Origin: a virus
Reading direction: 5' to 3' (one strand)
Virus record (IMG/VR): IMGVR_UViG_3300046010_002208
Coordinates: 1 to 34,208 of that record
Length of the DNA stretch: 34,208 nucleotides
Position numbers and translations under genes: made by a program. The notes beneath the pieces were generated by a model. That model was not told where the DNA came from. It did no database searches and saw nothing but the letters and a program-made list of their open reading frames with translations. Of this stretch, positions 1,143 to 34,200 are shown in pieces (positions within the stretch are counted from its first letter, which is position 1; each line of letters starts with the position of its first letter).

Positions 1143-1875
1143 TTTGTTGTCTCGCCTTCATAATTGCCTGAAGGTCATAAGTTGATCCTCGCTTCTCAAT
1201 ATCAAACTTTTTGACCAAGCGATAGACCTCGCGTTGCGTCATTTGTAGCCAAGCAGAAATCGCTTCCACATCTAGGAAGAATCTGCGGTTCGGGTTACTC
1301 ATTGCCAATGCCACCAATCTCAAGACCGACCAACTTTGTTTGCATCCAAAACAACTGACATCCTGCGACAACTGTTCAACATCAATGACAACAAAGCGAC
1401 TGCAATCATCAGTTGGACACGGAATCCGTCGTGCCTGTTCCTTGAACTTCTTGGCGGCAGCACGCCCCCTGGCATGAAGCCCCCACAATTCCCCTGCAAA
1501 GTCTAACGCCCAGTCCTGTTGCAATGTCCACGACAAGTGGGCAATGTGGAAGTCACAGGTCGCCTGAACCTCGGCGTCGGTGCTGCGTTCCTTGAGGACA
1601 AGCGCGGGCAGGGTCAAGTGCCTCCCGCGCCTGATAATGATTTCCCAACTGTGAAGAATCGCCAACAGGTCGGTCGCCATAGAGAAATCAAGGGCATTGA
1701 CATTGATCCCAATCGAGCGCTCGGCAGTGACCGCGCCACTGCCGGTGCGAGATGGCTCAAGGTAGAAGCCCGCCTCAAATTGCAGTTGAGGCAACTCTTT
1801 CAGGATTGACCTCATTCGACCAAAGCAACTACGGCATTCGGTTTCAATCTCAGACTTACAGACTTGACATTGCAT
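1135..1875 (-). CDS. Zinc-finger and helix-turn-helix DNA-binding protein
   Basis: The protein has 246 residues. It opens with a cysteine cluster (C3, C6, C14, C17), has a long middle section, and then a second CxxxxC...CxxC cluster (CPTDDC and CFGC). The C-terminal ~45 residues read like a winged helix-turn-helix: an AISAWLQMTQREVYRLVKKF stretch followed by a short basic wing. Such proteins follow replication genes in actinophages and are presumed DNA-binding; its target is unknown. The ATG at 1875 overlaps the upstream stop as TAATG and has AGGAG upstream. An in-frame ATG at 1926 would lie inside the neighbour and is rejected. Confidence 0.65.
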   Translation of the reverse strand: MQCQVCKSEIETECRSCFGRMRSILKELPQLQFEAGFYLEPSRTGSGAVTAERSIGINVNALDFSMATDLLAILHSWEIIIRRGRHLTLPALVLKERSTDAEVQATCDFHIAHLSWTLQQDWALDFAGELWGLHARGRAAAKKFKEQARRIPCPTDDCSRFVVIDVEQLSQDVSCFGCKQSWSVLRLVALAMSNPNRRFFLDVEAISAWLQMTQREVYRLVKKFDIEKRGSTYDLQAIMKARQQNA

Positions 1876-2225
1876 TAGAAGGCAGGCTCCTGACTTGTGG
1901 ATAGAACTGTGGATAACTTTGACCAATATGACGGCGGCTCGGATTCAAAGAGTCGCCAACCCTGACAGGTATGATCGGCAACAATGACTCGGTCTTTATT
2001 CGGTGCGGCCCATTTGATTCGATTGAGGCTTCGTTCAACGGCTTCAAAGGAAACTCTTGTGCGGTGTAGCTCGTAGGTCATCAGACCCGACAGACGCTTG
2101 ATGACTTCTTCCTCAATGGTCAATCGCGGGGTATCAAGCCTGCGAGTAAAGCCTGCCCACGAGATACCTGCCCAAATAATGGCGCCGCACCTTGAACAGT
2201 TGATTGGCTTGAAATCTTGATTCAT
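1875..2225 (-). CDS. Zinc-ribbon-like small protein
   Basis: This 116-residue protein starts with a CxxC pair (INCSRCG) and has an isolated C and H near DHTCQGWRL, which could complete one metal site. The rest is mixed helix with no motif I can name. It is the first gene after the repeat-rich stretch 2251-2358 and has AAGG upstream of its ATG. Its 3' end contains two DnaA-box-like sequences (1896-1904 and 1908-1916), so part of the gene may double as a replication element. The next gene starts in its stop codon. Confidence 0.6.
   Translation of the reverse strand: MNQDFKPINCSRCGAIIWAGISWAGFTRRLDTPRLTIEEEVIKRLSGLMTYELHRTRVSFEAVERSLNRIKWAAPNKDRVIVADHTCQGWRLFESEPPSYWSKLSTVLSTSQEPAF
1896..1916. 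promoter_or_regulatory. Pair of DnaA-box-like sequences
   Basis: TGTGGATAG (1896-1904) and TGTGGATAA (1908-1916) are direct repeats. The second matches the classical DnaA box (TTATCCACA on the other strand) at 9 of 9 positions, the first at 8 of 9. They lie inside coding sequence, about 340 bases from the repeat block next to the Prim-Pol/helicase gene. Binding by host DnaA is inferred, not shown. Confidence 0.4.
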
Positions 2226-2250
2226 CTATGGCCTTGGGGTGACCGTTGCC

Positions 2251-2293
2251 CTGTTTCCCGTTCCCCCCTTATAGGGGGGAAACGGGGAAACAG
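2251..2293. repeat. Long GC-rich hairpin downstream of the primase-helicase gene
   Basis: CTGTTTCCCGTTCCCCCCT on the left pairs almost fully with AGGGGGGAAACGGGGAAACAG on the right around a 3-base loop, with two single-base bulges. No U-tract follows on either strand, so it does not look like an intrinsic terminator. The arms contain the same GTTTCCC/GGGAAAC word that recurs up to 2358. Confidence 0.65.
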
Positions 2294-2358
2294 TTGGCAC
2301 GCTCAAGTCGGTGGTGTTTCCCGAAATAGTGGGAAACAGTTGGGAAACAGGGAAACAG
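2251..2358. repeat. Cluster of GGGAAACA motifs: candidate origin or operator
   Basis: Six copies of GGGAAACA(G) or its complement lie in 108 bases. Forward copies are at 2285-2293, 2331-2339, 2342-2350 and 2350-2358; inverted copies are at 2251-2259 and 2315-2322. The 2315-2338 pair forms a second inverted repeat. The cluster ends exactly at the stop codon of the Prim-Pol/helicase gene (2359-2361). Iteron-like repeats beside a replication initiator gene suggest a replication origin or autoregulatory site; this is inference from position and structure. Confidence 0.55.
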
Positions 2359-4419
2359 TTACTCATTCGGAGTCCAAGGGTTGACATCATTTGCAAAGAA
2401 GTCGGATTGGAAGCCGTAAAGATACTTCTGCCCATCTTTGCGATAAGTGACATGACCATTGCTGACAAGGCTCTCCATGACAAATTTCAGCTCGGCATCC
2501 TTCATTCCGTGGCCTTCATCTCGTAGGTGATCAGCGATTTGATTCCGACCCATCTCGTATCCTGTCCTTCTGAGCAAGTCGCAGACCGCTTCCATTTTCT
2601 GCTCTCGTGTTGATACTTTGACAATTCCACCTGAAATGGAAACCGAGATGCCACCGTCAGGTAGCGAGCGCAGGTTGGCGACGCCGACCGTCTTGGCGTC
2701 AGGGCAGATGGCACGGACAAAGCCAGGACGATCCTTGGTGCAAGTAATGTCCAAGGCGCCGTCAATGCCTCTGCCAAAGGGCATCGCCACTGACACCGCA
2801 AAGGCCGCGCCATCAATGTCAGCTCTCTTGGCTTGAGCGCCGATGGCGTAGTTGCCTCGGTTGTCTTTGCTCTTGGTGACATGGTCAATCGTCAGAATGC
2901 CTGCTCCGCCGATTCTCAAGGGCTTCAAGACCTTCTGTGAAAAGGTGGTGGCATCTTTGTTCTTCTCTAAGTCCAAACCAAGCAGGTTCATCGCGGCATT
3001 GACACCATCTACGACGATGAGCGTCGGCAGATAGGCCATAATCTCGGTTCGCATAATTTCACCGATACCCTCACCCAATGGCTCGTCAGGATTGGCATAA
3101 CGGAACATTCTGAACTTATCGGTCGGCACCTTCAAGGTCTTGAGGCGGTTGGTAATGGATCGAGCCGAGTCCTCAAAATCAAGATAGAAGACGATGTTGT
3201 TCTTGAGTAATTCTTGGCGGATGGCCTCAAGTGCAATCCAAGTCTTACCTGATTCAGACTCACCGAAGATGGCATTGACCTTGCCAGCATAGAGAAGACA
3301 GTTGCCGTCCTCACGCTTGAGCATAGAAGGTGGCGCCTCGTCATCAAGGTCAATCTGTTCAATCTGCTTGGGTATCCACGAGGACTCAATGACTTCGCCT
3401 TCTTCATTATGAAGCTGAACGAGCGACGGTGAGTGAACTTCTAGGGTTCCCAATTCCTTGCGTACTTCTCCATAACCTTGCGAGCGTAAGGCGCGGGCAG
3501 AGGCTTGGAAGTCTCCGCCGTGTTCGACAATCGTGAAGACTGCGAACTTTGAATAGGATCGCTCCGCTTCAAACTGTGTGCTTGTGGAGAAGACAAAGAG
3601 TTTGTCGTTGCCTGCGTGGTTGGTGGTGGCACTGATGCCGTCGGTCTTATTCGGGCGACGCCATGCGGTGACTTTGTCACGGGTGGTGTAGACCTTCGAC
3701 CAACCGAGAGGCTCAAGAATCTGCTCCCAACTGACCTTGGCGTTGTAATCATCACCAGGAGTTAGTCCGTCGGCTTTGGGCTTGATGTCCTCGGTGATGG
3801 ACTCGTGCTTGGGGATAGCGTCAAAGGTTTCAAAGAGTTTGTGTAGCTCGTTGCGCTCAGGCACCGTCAGGGTCGGAATGGACTTTGGCCCGCCAACGAG
3901 CATTGTCCACGCTCCGCCTGATGGGTGGCAGGTGCCATTGGTCGGTGCGACGATGACAAAGCCGCCCTCGCCTCTCGTTTCGGCTAGGACATCAATACCG
4001 CCATTTTCGCCAGGGCGACGAGCGAGTTTGGTGTTGCCAGGAACTTCACCGTCAATGCGATAGAGCCAATGCAAGCCGCCTGATGGTGTGACCTCGACAT
4101 AACCATTGTTGATGCGATCCCATACATCGCCAAGACCTGATTTGTTTGCCATCTCTTTGAGGTCAAGGTGTAACTTGTCGGCGACTGCTCTGCCCTCTAG
4201 CTCTAACATCTCAAGGTTGCCACTGACTTGTCCGCAGATAACTCCTACGCCCTCGGCATTAGAAAACCAAGTCAACAATTCTTCAGCGCTCGGCAGCCGT
4301 TCTTGATACTGCTTCCAATTTGATAGCGCCGGTCGCTTGCTTCCATCTGTTGCCACAGGAACCGCGCAGATGTCATTGGCAGCGAACTCAAGCGCCGTTC
4401 GTAAGATTTCCCCCGTCAT
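2359..4419 (-). CDS. Bifunctional Prim-Pol / RecA-fold replicative helicase
   Basis: This 686-residue protein has two parts. Residues 1-200 resemble the primase-polymerase (archaeo-eukaryotic primase) domain: acidic ELE at 73-75 where the family often has DxD, H117 in TPSGGLHWLY, and D143 in GGID. Residues ~370-600 form a RecA-fold ATPase with Walker A GESESGKT (386-393) and a Walker B-like LIVVDG. The last ~90 residues look like a winged-helix tail. It is most likely the phage's replication initiator, primase and helicase; no DNA polymerase of another family is present. AAGGGAG precedes the ATG. The candidate origin lies directly after its stop codon. Confidence 0.85.
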   Translation of the reverse strand: MTGEILRTALEFAANDICAVPVATDGSKRPALSNWKQYQERLPSAEELLTWFSNAEGVGVICGQVSGNLEMLELEGRAVADKLHLDLKEMANKSGLGDVWDRINNGYVEVTPSGGLHWLYRIDGEVPGNTKLARRPGENGGIDVLAETRGEGGFVIVAPTNGTCHPSGGAWTMLVGGPKSIPTLTVPERNELHKLFETFDAIPKHESITEDIKPKADGLTPGDDYNAKVSWEQILEPLGWSKVYTTRDKVTAWRRPNKTDGISATTNHAGNDKLFVFSTSTQFEAERSYSKFAVFTIVEHGGDFQASARALRSQGYGEVRKELGTLEVHSPSLVQLHNEEGEVIESSWIPKQIEQIDLDDEAPPSMLKREDGNCLLYAGKVNAIFGESESGKTWIALEAIRQELLKNNIVFYLDFEDSARSITNRLKTLKVPTDKFRMFRYANPDEPLGEGIGEIMRTEIMAYLPTLIVVDGVNAAMNLLGLDLEKNKDATTFSQKVLKPLRIGGAGILTIDHVTKSKDNRGNYAIGAQAKRADIDGAAFAVSVAMPFGRGIDGALDITCTKDRPGFVRAICPDAKTVGVANLRSLPDGGISVSISGGIVKVSTREQKMEAVCDLLRRTGYEMGRNQIADHLRDEGHGMKDAELKFVMESLVSNGHVTYRKDGQKYLYGFQSDFFANDVNPWTPNE

Positions 4420-4432
4420 TTCTCCCTTTCTT

Positions 4433-5077
4433 CTACTTCACAAGTCTGTCAATAATCCATTGGACAACCGGCACCGCCACCGCATTGCCCATTTGTTTAT
4501 AGCGGTGCGAATCGGCTTGGCCCTCTGTCCATCCATCAGGAAAGCCTTGCAACCTCTCACACTCTGTCGGTGTCAATCGGCGCACGACTGATTTCTCCAT
4601 CACCATTCCGACATGGTCATTGCCTGCCTGACCTTTGCGGATTGTCTGTGAAGTTTCACTGAGGCTTTGATTGTAACTATCAAATGCCATCACTCCCATT
4701 CCTTGTGATGTTGTGCCAAGCGCCGGTGATACTTCACCTGACACAGGCGTTTGTGTTGGATGAAATGCAGTTGCTTTTCCTTCAGCAAGAAGTGGCATAT
4801 TGTTTCCACCCGTTCCCATTCGTGCCTGCGATGTGTTCACTTTGTCGTCTTGCACTCGAATATCACCAACCCTGTTTCCGTAGAAGATTATTTGAAAGTT
4901 ACTTGTTGCCAATGTGAAACTCCTGTTCTCGGCTAACAAAAATCCCTTCCCCCCCCCGCTCTTTCCTTCTCGTTCTCTCATAACAATCACAACTGTTGCA
5001 CGATTCTCGTTTGCATTATCAAAAGCATTCAATGTCGGTGCAACCCCCCCCTGCAACCCAAGTTTCGTCATCGTCAC
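4433..5077 (-). CDS. Cytosine-C5 DNA methyltransferase, C-terminal half
   Basis: This 214-residue open frame holds the parts missing from the neighbouring N-terminal half. It begins with the region ending GGVAPTLNAF, has a probable target-recognition segment, then motif IX (RRLTPTECERLQGFP) and motif X (QMGNAVAVPV). It is in the -1 frame relative to the first half. Its ATG lies 15 bases after the TAA of that half, with only a weak ribosome site; GTG 5083 is another option. Either the gene has suffered a one-base frameshift, or the two chains are made separately and pair, as in the known split enzyme M.AquI. Two long G runs (complement of 5044-5051 and 4949-4957) lie inside it without breaking the frame. 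Confidence 0.75.
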   Translation of the reverse strand: MTMTKLGLQGGVAPTLNAFDNANENRATVVIVMREREGKSGGGKGFLLAENRSFTLATSNFQIIFYGNRVGDIRVQDDKVNTSQARMGTGGNNMPLLAEGKATAFHPTQTPVSGEVSPALGTTSQGMGVMAFDSYNQSLSETSQTIRKGQAGNDHVGMVMEKSVVRRLTPTECERLQGFPDGWTEGQADSHRYKQMGNAVAVPVVQWIIDRLVK

Positions 5078-5091
5078 TTGATTGCGCTCGC

Positions 5092-5925
5092 TTACTCTTG
5101 ACGAACCACATCAATAACTGCTTGAAATCTGTTCTTATCTGGCATTCGTTGTTCACTTGATGTGCGCGTCAAAGTATCGGCGACATCGCCACCATCCCAC
5201 CAAGTCATCGTGTCGTGCGCTCTTTGCGATGACATTGTTGGAGCTATTGATTCTCGTGGGAAGTCGTAGAGTTCAAAGTTTCCTGCTCGGCTACTGTCGT
5301 CAGTGCTTCTTGCAGTTGCACCGGCAGTGTCTTTCCTCTTTTCGTTGCTCTTCGCAAGATACCCTGCGCGGCCTTCGGCGATAGCGAGTATTTCTTCAGG
5401 TGATCTCCCTGATTCTCCAAGACATCCGACAATGAAGACTCGACGGCGTCGTTGGGGAACTCCGAAGTATTGAGCATCAAGCACCCGCCACGCGATGCGA
5501 TACCCGCGCTCGACCAACGCTTCAATGACGACGGCCATATCTCTTCCGTTATTTGAGGAAAGTAGACCAGGCACATTTTCGAGGATAAAAGTCTGCGTTC
5601 GTGTTTCGTCAAGGAGTCGGCAGATTTCCCAGAAAAGTCCACTACGCGATCCTGCCAACCCTGCTCGTTTTCCAGCAACGGAAAGGTCTTGACAAGGAAA
5701 TCCACCGGTGATGATTCCGTTGCTTGGATCAAAACCTGCTGCTCTAAGTTGTTCACCGCTTACCCCCTGAATGTCACCGAAAAGTGCAGCGTTCGGAAAT
5801 CGCCGTTGTAAAACTTTCTGTGCGTGTTTATCCCATTCCACTGTTGCGACAACTTTGACTCCTGCTCGCTCAAGAGCTAAATCAAAACCGCCAACACCAG
5901 CGAAGAGTGAAACTGCCGTTGTCAT
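5092..5925 (-). CDS. Cytosine-C5 DNA methyltransferase, N-terminal half
   Basis: This 277-residue chain has motif I FAGVGGF (8-14), motif IV GGFPCQDLS with catalytic C78, motif VI ENV (116-118) and motif VIII QRRRRVF (158-164). It stops in TAA just before the region needed for DNA recognition and motifs IX-X, which lie in the next frame. The ATG at 5925 overlaps the upstream stop as ATGA, so this start is favoured over the ATG at 5937. A -1 shift near 5095-5100 would join it smoothly to the downstream half (…VVRQ then RVSERNQVTM…). Phage C5 methyltransferases commonly protect DNA from host restriction. Another open frame (5244-5756) lies inside it on the same strand. Confidence 0.8.
   Translation of the reverse strand: MTTAVSLFAGVGGFDLALERAGVKVVATVEWDKHAQKVLQRRFPNAALFGDIQGVSGEQLRAAGFDPSNGIITGGFPCQDLSVAGKRAGLAGSRSGLFWEICRLLDETRTQTFILENVPGLLSSNNGRDMAVVIEALVERGYRIAWRVLDAQYFGVPQRRRRVFIVGCLGESGRSPEEILAIAEGRAGYLAKSNEKRKDTAGATARSTDDSSRAGNFELYDFPRESIAPTMSSQRAHDTMTWWDGGDVADTLTRTSSEQRMPDKNRFQAVIDVVRQE
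5244..5756 (-). CDS. Possible overprinted protein inside the C5 methyltransferase gene
   Basis: This 170-codon open frame runs on the same strand as the methyltransferase N-terminal half, in another frame, and is fully contained in it. It begins with GTG 5756 and has AGGGGG about six bases upstream, a spacing typical of real starts here. The C-terminal part (ESSLSDVLENQGDHLKKYSL, then SPKAAQGILRRATKRGKTLP) resembles, from memory, a segment seen in separately annotated phage proteins near C5 methyltransferases. That recollection is the main reason to list it; I could not check it. Long open frames can arise by chance inside constrained genes, so this remains a candidate. Confidence 0.45.
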   Translation of the reverse strand: MNNLEQQVLIQATESSPVDFLVKTFPLLENEQGWQDRVVDFSGKSADSLTKHERRLLSSKMCLVYFPQITEEIWPSSLKRWSSAGIASRGGCLMLNTSEFPNDAVESSLSDVLENQGDHLKKYSLSPKAAQGILRRATKRGKTLPVQLQEALTTVAEQETLNSTTSHENQ

Positions 5926-6116
5926 TGTTGCCCCCATAGATTTAGTGCTTCCCTTCCTTCTACCTTTGACGGATCATTGTTGCTTTGTAAATAACCTTCT
6001 TTGCGCATTTGTGACGCGATAACAGTTCCCATGCGAAATGGAGTGTCAGGAAGTGAAGTCTCATAACAACGCCACAGAATAGATGCAATGGCGCCTTCAA
6101 CACTGCTTCGACTCAT
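5922..6116 (-). CDS. Hypothetical 64-residue protein between two methyltransferases
   Basis: I do not recognise this small soluble protein. Its ATG overlaps the stop of the upstream amino-methyltransferase (ATGA at 6113-6116) and its own stop overlaps the ATG of the C5 methyltransferase (ATGA at 5922-5925). This coupling on both sides argues that it is translated. No metal site, membrane segment or DNA-binding motif is evident. Confidence 0.6.
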   Translation of the reverse strand: MSRSSVEGAIASILWRCYETSLPDTPFRMGTVIASQMRKEGYLQSNNDPSKVEGREALNLWGQQ

Positions 6117-9390: not shown

Positions 9391-9765
9391 TCAGTAATAA
9401 TTATTTTCCTTGAAGAAACCCCACGCATTGCAAGGGGTCACATGGCGCCTGTGGATATAGGCGAGCGTTGCCACGAGCTGCGGCACCGAGGCTTGAGAAT
9501 GTTTCATCCCAAGATTGCGATAGGTGGCATCAAGTAATTGACCGATGCCTTGTGCGCTTGAGGTCGGATTTTCAGCCGACGCCTTCCACGCTGATTCCTT
9601 GCCAAGCAACTTTGCCAGGCAGGAATATTCTTTTTTCGTCAGCAATTTCTTTGCCAATTTCTTAGCATCTACTTGCTGAAGTAGTGGTCGCTCTTTGTAG
9701 ACCACAGTTGCAGGCACCGCCGGTTGCGGTGCGAATGCTGCGTTGACGAACATCGAGGTCAACAT
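9391..9765 (-). CDS. Secreted SLT-like transglycosylase / lysozyme-fold protein
   Basis: The 124-residue protein starts with a short hydrophobic, signal-like segment (MLTSMFVNAAFA) and a linker. A compact lysozyme-fold domain follows, with the catalytic-type glutamate in LLGKESAWKA and the AQGIGQLL motif. It ends in a PCNAWGFF-type motif often seen at the end of actinobacterial SLT domains. It probably cleaves peptidoglycan outside the membrane. It lies in the early region next to WhiB, far from the lysis cassette, so a role other than final lysis is possible. GGAG precedes the ATG, which overlaps the WhiB stop by 7 bases. Confidence 0.7.
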   Translation of the reverse strand: MLTSMFVNAAFAPQPAVPATVVYKERPLLQQVDAKKLAKKLLTKKEYSCLAKLLGKESAWKASAENPTSSAQGIGQLLDATYRNLGMKHSQASVPQLVATLAYIHRRHVTPCNAWGFFKENNYY

Positions 9766-10226
9766 ACTGACTCCGATGATGATAATGATTCCCCTGACGG
9801 TTTTTCTTCTTTGAGTAATTGGGATTCTCCTTCTAATTTCGCGGCAATCTTGATAACTTGATTGACATACGCCAATTCAACTTTCAAGGTTGCTGCGATT
9901 TCTTTGGGTGTTCGCCCAAGTGAGGTCAACGATCGAATCGCCTCGGCTTTGTTAGTTTTGCCGGTGAAACGATGCTTGAAGCCTTGTCCAAATCCTCGTT
10001 GCGCAGGCGTCGTGCCTGCCCATATTCCATAAGAGATTTGTTCCTTGAGCGCGTAGTCCAAGCACTCCTTTCGTTCAGGACAACCGGCGCAAATAGCACG
10101 CACGATTGGGAGGCACTTTGCCTCTTGTTCTCGTGATTCGGGAAAAAATAGATTCGGGTTGATAATTTCTCTGCAACTTGCTTCAGGAAGCAAAGGCAGA
10201 CTCGGAATGAATGTGTTGAGTTGCAA
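9759..10226 (-). CDS. WhiB-family transcription factor with C-terminal HTH-like extension
   Basis: Residues 1-80 form a WhiB domain: C18, then C46-x2-C49-x5-C55 to hold a [4Fe-4S] cluster, and the GIWAG turn (67-71) that contacts the sigma factor in known WhiB proteins. Residues ~90-130 (KAEAIRSLTSLGRTPKEIAA onward) read like a helix-turn-helix, followed by a disordered Ser/Glu tail, so it is longer than most phage WhiB proteins. The start is TTG 10226, since no ATG lies before the first cysteine and the upstream stop ends at 10229. WhiB strongly indicates an actinobacterial host and may redirect host transcription. Confidence 0.85.
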   Translation of the reverse strand: MQLNTFIPSLPLLPEASCREIINPNLFFPESREQEAKCLPIVRAICAGCPERKECLDYALKEQISYGIWAGTTPAQRGFGQGFKHRFTGKTNKAEAIRSLTSLGRTPKEIAATLKVELAYVNQVIKIAAKLEGESQLLKEEKPSGESLSSSESVC

Positions 10227-11063: not shown

Positions 11064-11230
11064 AAAACCCCTTCCGTTTGCTTGTGGATAAGTATGAGGG
11101 GAAGGTCTGACACCCTAGCGCACGACACGCCCAAGCCTCAATCCCCTTGTGTATGGACAAAGGTAGGCACAAAGGCTATTGTTCTCTCATAGGGGCGAAA
11201 GGTAGTAGCTCCAAGAAACGGAAGAAGAAA
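11064..11230. promoter_or_regulatory. Divergent promoter region with a DnaA-like box
   Basis: No gene lies in these 167 bases, which separate leftward and rightward operons. For the rightward side, TGGACA (11154-11159) and TATTGT (11177-11182) are 17 bases apart, a fair match to a housekeeping promoter (5 of 6 and 4 of 6). No equally clear leftward promoter is visible. TGTGGATAA (11083-11091), a perfect DnaA-box match, lies 20 bases before the first leftward gene and could be a regulatory site. Confidence 0.5.
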
Positions 11231-11953: not shown

Positions 11954-12105
11954 CATACGAAGAAGCGATGAACAGATTGGCTCTTCAAATGCTTGGCAAG
12001 TGGCATCAAGAGCAAGCCGATGAATTAGTTGATGACGAACTGCAACAAGAGATGCGTGACTTCCACCTTGGCGCATCGCTACTCATCAAGGAGATTGTCA
12101 AATGA
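11950..12105 (+). CDS. Hypothetical 51-residue helical protein
   Basis: The small protein is almost all helix and acidic in the middle (EEAMNRLALQMLGKW, then QADELVDDELQQEM). It overlaps the regulator gene by ATGA (11950-11953) and the Prim-Pol gene by ATGA (12102-12105), which supports translation. No family recognised. Confidence 0.55.
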   Translation: MTYEEAMNRLALQMLGKWHQEQADELVDDELQQEMRDFHLGASLLIKEIVK

Positions 12106-12560
12106 CAACCGCCGAAATCGCCACCGCCTTTGCCAAGCGTGGTTGGTATGTCTTGCCTTGCTACCCACAACAAAAGGTTCCCTTCTTTCCTATCGCAAAG
12201 CAGGGATATAAGTCGGCATCCAATAAGCCCGCCACAGTCAAGAAATGGTTTGAGAAATCACCGCTTCTCAACATTGGCATTGCTTGTGCGCCTTCCAATC
12301 TTGTTGTCTTTGATGTGGACTTTCGCAATGGCGGAACCACCGAAGGTTTAGAGCTTGACACCTTCACAGTTGAAACAGGCGATGGTCTGCATCTTTACTA
12401 CAAGGCACCGCTTGGCGCGTCATTTCCTGGCAAGTTACGCCAAGGAGTAGACATCAAGTTCAATGGATATGTTGTCACCGCAGGATCACTACACGAAAAC
12501 GGCAAGTTCTATGAAGTCGTCAAAGATATTGAACCTGCCCCTGTGATGGGATGGTGCTAG
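12102..12560 (+). CDS. Stand-alone Prim-Pol domain protein
   Basis: This 152-residue protein is a Prim-Pol (bifunctional primase/polymerase) domain with no helicase attached. The three active-site elements are present: D71-x-D73 in VVFDVDF, H97 in GDGLHLYY and D117 in GVDIKF. The acidic pair is the canonical DxD, unlike the ELE of the larger replication protein at 2359-4419. It might supply primers, fill gaps, or modulate the main replication protein. The domain looks trimmed at the C-terminus. It overlaps the upstream gene by ATGA, and its stop (12558-12560) directly precedes the next ATG. Confidence 0.75.
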   Translation: MTTAEIATAFAKRGWYVLPCYPQQKVPFFPIAKQGYKSASNKPATVKKWFEKSPLLNIGIACAPSNLVVFDVDFRNGGTTEGLELDTFTVETGDGLHLYYKAPLGASFPGKLRQGVDIKFNGYVVTAGSLHENGKFYEVVKDIEPAPVMGWC

Positions 12561-34188: not shown

Positions 34189-34200
34189 GGAATACGCGGG
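34189..34200. repeat. Right copy of 12-bp terminal direct repeat
   Basis: This is the second copy of GGAATACGCGGG, identical to 4-15. The distance to the left copy through a circular junction is 23 bp, about two helical turns. GGGTGCT also recurs near both ends (14-20 and 34160-34166). The terminal placement supports a cos or packaging site. Confidence 0.6.

Follow-up and report, generated by a model that had tools for sequence, protein, structure and literature searches.

The short repeats at positions 2251–2358 of the window (i.e., the whole stretch of DNA analysed, an IMG/VR virus record of 34,208 bases) very probably form an iteron replication origin that is read by the initiator's own winged helix and exchanged together with it as a cassette. 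The initial annotation had proposed a candidate origin here, and the conserved place and layout of the array, together with the covariation of its repeat word and the winged helix in related phages, argue for that reading and extend it. The features concerned are as follows.

1875–2225, minus strand: next gene, 116 aa, phrog_10480 (PHROGs)
1896–1916, minus strand: two DnaA-box-like 9-mers, lineage-specific and of doubtful role
2229–2660, no strand: counterpart of the exchangeable cassette (last ~300 bp of the initiator gene plus array), from swaps in pairs of relatives
2251–2293, no strand: hairpin of 43 bases with one iteron per arm (fold prediction)
2251–2358, no strand: putative iteron array (repeat positions and shuffles; place and layout conserved)
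2359–4419, minus strand: initiator gene, Prim-Pol plus AAA_25 helicase plus C-terminal winged helix (Pfam, PHROGs, structure prediction)
2404–2607, minus strand: codons of the C-terminal winged helix, residues 605–672, the putative iteron reader
about 2461–2499, minus strand: recognition helix within the winged helix, residues 641–653
about 2866–3297, minus strand: AAA_25 helicase domain (PF13481), RecA-like (Pfam)
about 3898–4395, minus strand: Prim-Pol domain (PF09250) (Pfam)

Short directional repeats are clustered beside the replication initiator gene, as at iteron origins. Specifically, six exact copies of GGGAAACA in both orientations, at 2252(-), 2285(+), 2315(-), 2331(+), 2342(+) and 2350(+), are joined by a single near-copy, GGGAAACG, at 2277(+), while GGGAAAC occurs just twice more in the 34,208-base record outside the array. 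This density is beyond chance: seven non-overlapping copies of one 7-mer fall inside 110 bp, whereas among 150 dinucleotide shuffles of the whole window the best 7-mer count was three in 142 and four in 4, and no shuffle exceeded four. Exact positions and the shuffle control thus confirm the six repeats first described; the 43-base hairpin likewise lies where it had been placed (core CCCCCCTTATAGGGGGG, 2263–2279; counterpart in relatives CCCCCTCTTTAGAGGGG), and the array does stop at the stop codon of the minus-strand initiator gene (2359–2361), its last copy ending at 2357, one base short of it.

The array region folds strongly as single-stranded DNA (z = -6.0 for the gene strand, -4.6 for the other), and strong predicted gene-strand hairpins between two genes could also mark an RNA element, with transcript hairpins acting as terminator, attenuator or processing site. 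Yet the terminator scan made no call at the array and found no T-run behind the hairpin, an Rfam scan returned no family at the site, and such an element leaves unexplained both the direct repeats, at least three of which stand outside any stem, and the match of word to DNA-binding domain described below; we consider it extremely improbable. An AT-rich unwinding region, which is common but not universal in iteron-type origins, was not seen at the array, where the best 100-base AT content between 1700 and 2700 was 0.58 against a record maximum of 0.73. The initial annotation had named GC skew as a check, which proved uninformative either way: total skew makes no turn at the array and has its minimum near 18.3 kb, and third-position skew has no break.

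If the array were an origin, repeats would be expected beside related genes, as the initial annotation had itself reasoned. A protein-based scan of viral contigs that made no use of the repeats returned 80 loci with initiator homologues, 66 of which had a complete gene end and a usable 3' flank for array analysis (mostly metagenomic contigs, with near-copies inflating the counts). Place and layout are kept in all 66: the array stands at the stop codon in 63, and in three (L037, L038, L063) it is displaced 0.5–0.8 kb by inserted DNA. Two further loci from a scan with GGGAAACAGTTGGGAAACA (L085, L089) have two adjacent copies each and no array. Within any given array most copies share one word, and this word defines types: GTTTCCC (type A, that of the window), CGTTCCG (B), CCGAACCT (C), CCGCGCC (D), TGTTCCC/T (E) and CCGATCC (F, from loci found by the hairpin-core scan described below). 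Relative to the hairpin centre, words of types A, B and E start near -84, -76, -65, -19 and -12, with inverted copies near -50 and near +12, and types C, D and F have a similar layout with slightly different spacing. Orientation and spacing around the central hairpin are thus largely kept although the word changes.

The protein most likely to read these words is encoded immediately beside them. The C-terminal segment of the initiator is predicted with high confidence to be a winged helix, and the predicted domain matches solved winged helices (e.g., Hop2 2mh2, TM-score 0.90 by target length); this domain alone was used, as the full-length AlphaFold model had a mean pLDDT of 52. That model was not good enough for a fold search, and the helicase segment retrieved RecA proteins in a PDB sequence search.

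Across relatives, word type follows this C-terminal winged helix rather than the catalytic body. Comparing pairs of the same and of different word type, the gap in protein identity does not exceed 0.15 through residue 614 and rises to about 0.3 at residues 615–664 (0.81 v 0.52 and 0.70 v 0.39, same-type v different-type), and pairs whose bodies are at least 95% alike but whose words differ average 0.41 in the identity of their C-terminal parts. The body tree (residues 1–589) requires 15 word changes, as opposed to six for the winged-helix tree (residues 603–674, a short domain and weakly resolved), where the minimum is five and the shuffled mean 22.8. Where the recognition helix begins, residues 640–643 almost suffice to tell the types apart: KD[AS]E for A, [AGS]N[DGN]E for B, NNEE for E and GNTE for D. 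That words change in step with the winged helix is the strongest evidence for recognition of the iterons by the initiator, and we infer from this covariation that the winged helix confers the binding specificity.

Closely related pairs point the same way. In L034 (type C) and L016 (type B) the initiator gene is 93–97% identical to 300 bp before the stop, the last 300 bp fall to 51–61% and the array to 40–58%, and the DNA beyond the array returns to 95–100%. The pairs L025/L047, L040/L052 and L061/L067 repeat this pattern, some with short flanks, as does L026/L034, in which the upstream half of the gene is less similar. Because the DNA profiles of these pairs differ there alone, winged helix and array move as one unit, and we take the exchanged cassette to be about 430 bp, comprising the last ~300 bp of the initiator gene and the array. 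The product of the next gene (phrog_10480) was considered as the reader and rejected, since that gene does not follow the word and its DNA is unchanged across swaps.

Linkage could account for part of the covariation, since the cassette is one contiguous piece of DNA. Taken to its extreme, recombination would carry the adjacent winged-helix codons and repeats together in contiguous swaps without the helix being a reader at all. We regard this as very unlikely, as it explains neither the switch of all copies to a single new word with the layout preserved nor breakpoints that bracket exactly the winged helix and array; moreover, the three displaced arrays (see above) still have the word type that their winged helices suggest. 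Arrays of similar size also serve partition or packaging, so that a site for another phage protein might be entertained. However, the word follows and swaps with the winged helix of a replication helicase while neighbouring DNA stays constant, and the terminase genes lie at the opposite end of the record; a partition or packaging site is therefore scarcely to be expected. As a separate observation, GGAATACGCGGG occurs twice in the record, at 4–15 and 34189–34200, i.e., at its extreme ends and in the same orientation, which may reflect packaging, circularity or assembly.

The initial annotation had also given a part to two DnaA-box-like 9-mers. Both are as claimed, CTATCCACA at 1896–1904 and a perfect TTATCCACA at 1908–1916 on the minus strand, with starts 12 bases apart and about 335 bases from the array, but their role in the origin found little backing, as they are missing in many relatives. 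A DnaA box lies 437–565 bp downstream in the window, its near relatives and four others (about 440 bp for the lineage of the window), whereas many relatives have lost this stretch or have other DNA in its place; in types D and F a perfect DnaA box sits at the left edge of the array and TTTTCCACA follows just past its right edge. In the window as a whole, DnaA-like 9-mers are fewer than in its shuffles, and a further TTATCCACA lies at 11083. DnaA boxes occur in many, though not all, iteron-type origins; because they are not conserved here we rejected them as a general part of this origin, and a role for DnaA in some lineages is possible.

Beyond this family, a scan of viral contigs with the 17-base core CCCCCTCTTTAGAGGGG gave at least 120 stretches, against 0 for a permuted core of the same composition, CCCCCTGTTTACAGGGG. 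Among the matches listed, 97 of 112 core sites stand in an array, defined as four or more nearby copies of one 7-mer, and 78 of 112 are no more than 1 kb away from an AAA_25 helicase frame, on its 3' side; these arrays use many other words, and the adjacent helicases carry a Prim-Pol, a Toprim or no primase part. Four core arrays lack a detected AAA_25 frame nearby (L124:6701, L126:903, L152:4677, L115:5053), for which truncated contigs, other initiators and origin-borrowing elements are candidate readings. In bacterial genomes the core is mostly a dispersed repeat without a helicase, on which ground we rejected it as an origin marker by itself; it recurs on many contigs of a few genomes (L316–L395; e.g., Oscillospiraceae Hs463_bin105 and Anaerolineaceae UBA5311), mostly with neither helicase nor array. 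Arrays of TACGTCA/ACGTCAA around a C6/G6 hairpin with no AAA_25 nearby (L209, L234, L238, L256, L258, L268, L290, L298) may be origins of this kind that use a different initiator.

A repeat-independent test used the 6–10 kb loci of 16 sequenced phages picked by helicase homology alone. In 12 of the 16, a small cultured-phage sample, the helicase gene's 3' end is where the densest array of the locus is located; were this zone to make up a tenth of each locus, such an outcome would have a probability of about 1e-9. The array was missing there in Nocardia NBR1, Gordonia Upyo, Mycobacterium Imvubu and Caulobacter GB2A. A Toprim–AAA_25 family shares this layout, its words being based on GTACC, AGGTTA, GGGACA, GGTACA and GGTTCA. 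The search beside related genes that had been suggested at the outset hence finds arrays beside the majority of distant AAA_25 helicase genes as well.

These wider comparisons bear on whether the winged helix might bind the repeats as operators, controlling its own operon or the next gene while replication starts elsewhere. Such operators would covary with the winged helix in the same way, the array lies between co-directed genes and near the start of the next one, and initiators often both replicate and regulate. On the other hand, the array is behind the initiator gene and not in front of it, no sigma-70-like promoter was called in it (host promoters may differ), and its place at the helicase 3' end is kept across phages with different neighbours, which makes an operator unlikely.

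Under the origin reading, the C-terminal winged helix of the initiator would bind the short iterons and the AAA_25 helicase ring would assemble at the array; the DNA around the hairpin, whose role is itself conjectural, would be opened, and the Prim-Pol domain would prime near it, such that replication starts at the array. A host polymerase probably takes over after priming, because none of the window proteins scanned looked like a replicative DNA polymerase. Iteron word and winged helix would together constitute a lineage-specific address, swapped as a pair against a constant background of catalytic body and neighbouring genes. Elsewhere in the window, a second short Prim-Pol-like frame of 152 aa (12102–12560, plus strand, opposite to nearly all other genes) matches PHROG DNA primase families (best E 9.5e-22); a C5 cytosine methyltransferase domain extends over two minus-strand frames (4433–5937; first half 5092–5937, second half 4433–5077), for which a split gene and a frameshift are candidate readings; and a WhiB-like regulator (9759–10226, minus strand) fits an actinobacterial host.

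We found no report in the open-access literature of a phage Prim-Pol/AAA_25 origin with iterons, though each element has counterparts. The alpha protein of P4 differs in having a Toprim-type primase and a helicase of another class, and the P4 repeats are of one fixed word. It is alike in that a single protein with a primase, a helicase and a winged helix binds short repeats (PMC4234260). SaPI Rep and SCCmec Cch2 resemble our initiator in a helicase-initiator whose C-terminal domain acts on short repeats that immediately follow its own gene, as described for SaPI Rep (PMC7581432), but there the initiator-helicase is of another kind and the primase separate, whereas the phage protein is a RecA-like AAA_25 fused to a Prim-Pol. 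The RSF1010 oriV likewise has iterons plus stem-loops, the latter being where its primase acts, and relies on a ring helicase (PMC4234260), yet divides among three proteins (RepA, RepB', RepC) what is one here, and a PDB sequence search gave no match of our helicase segment to the RepA structure. With pRN1 ORF904 and phage BIP-1 the initiator shares a Prim-Pol, a helicase and a C-terminal winged helix in one protein, and a stem-loop origin just downstream of the gene whose structure is kept while its sequence changes (PMC4234260), the origin position being inferred in our case; those proteins have an SF3 helicase, in place of which our initiator has Pfam AAA_25 and RecA-like matches, and their authors report no iterons at the origin (PMC4234260). 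In the PLE satellites, RepA_N and the origin vary together, the modules have been exchanged time and again, replication is limited to cognate pairs, and the origin-directed nuclease Odn of phage ICP1 selects for origin change (PMC8263062). The putative DNA-binding domain and array of our phages covary similarly while the rest of the initiator is conserved, but PLE is a satellite and not a phage, with an N-terminal RepA_N, iterons of about 30 bp and two replicon groups (PMC8263062), and Pfam finds no RepA_N in our initiator. As it has neither an SF3 helicase nor RepA_N, we assign the system to the iteron-origin/initiator kind and not to those of pRN1 or PLE.

Tentatively, phages with AAA_25 primase-helicases at large may possess a two-part origin, in which a nearly invariant hairpin core like CCCCCTCTTTAGAGGGG serves opening or priming and a fast-changing iteron address is read by an exchangeable winged helix, switching being driven by competitors that exploit the origin or cleave it, such as satellites, co-infecting phages or origin-directed nucleases; we rate this generalization as possible, at somewhat less than even chances. 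What had been an unannotated repeat cluster would become a predictable origin marker at the 3' end of AAA_25 helicase genes in many cultured and uncultured phages, and the paired changes in winged-helix residues and 6–8-base words offer a natural data set for a protein–DNA recognition code. The cassette swaps, in turn, make it possible to test if phages switch origins as a way out of parasitism or incompatibility, as has so far been shown for the PLE satellite (PMC8263062).
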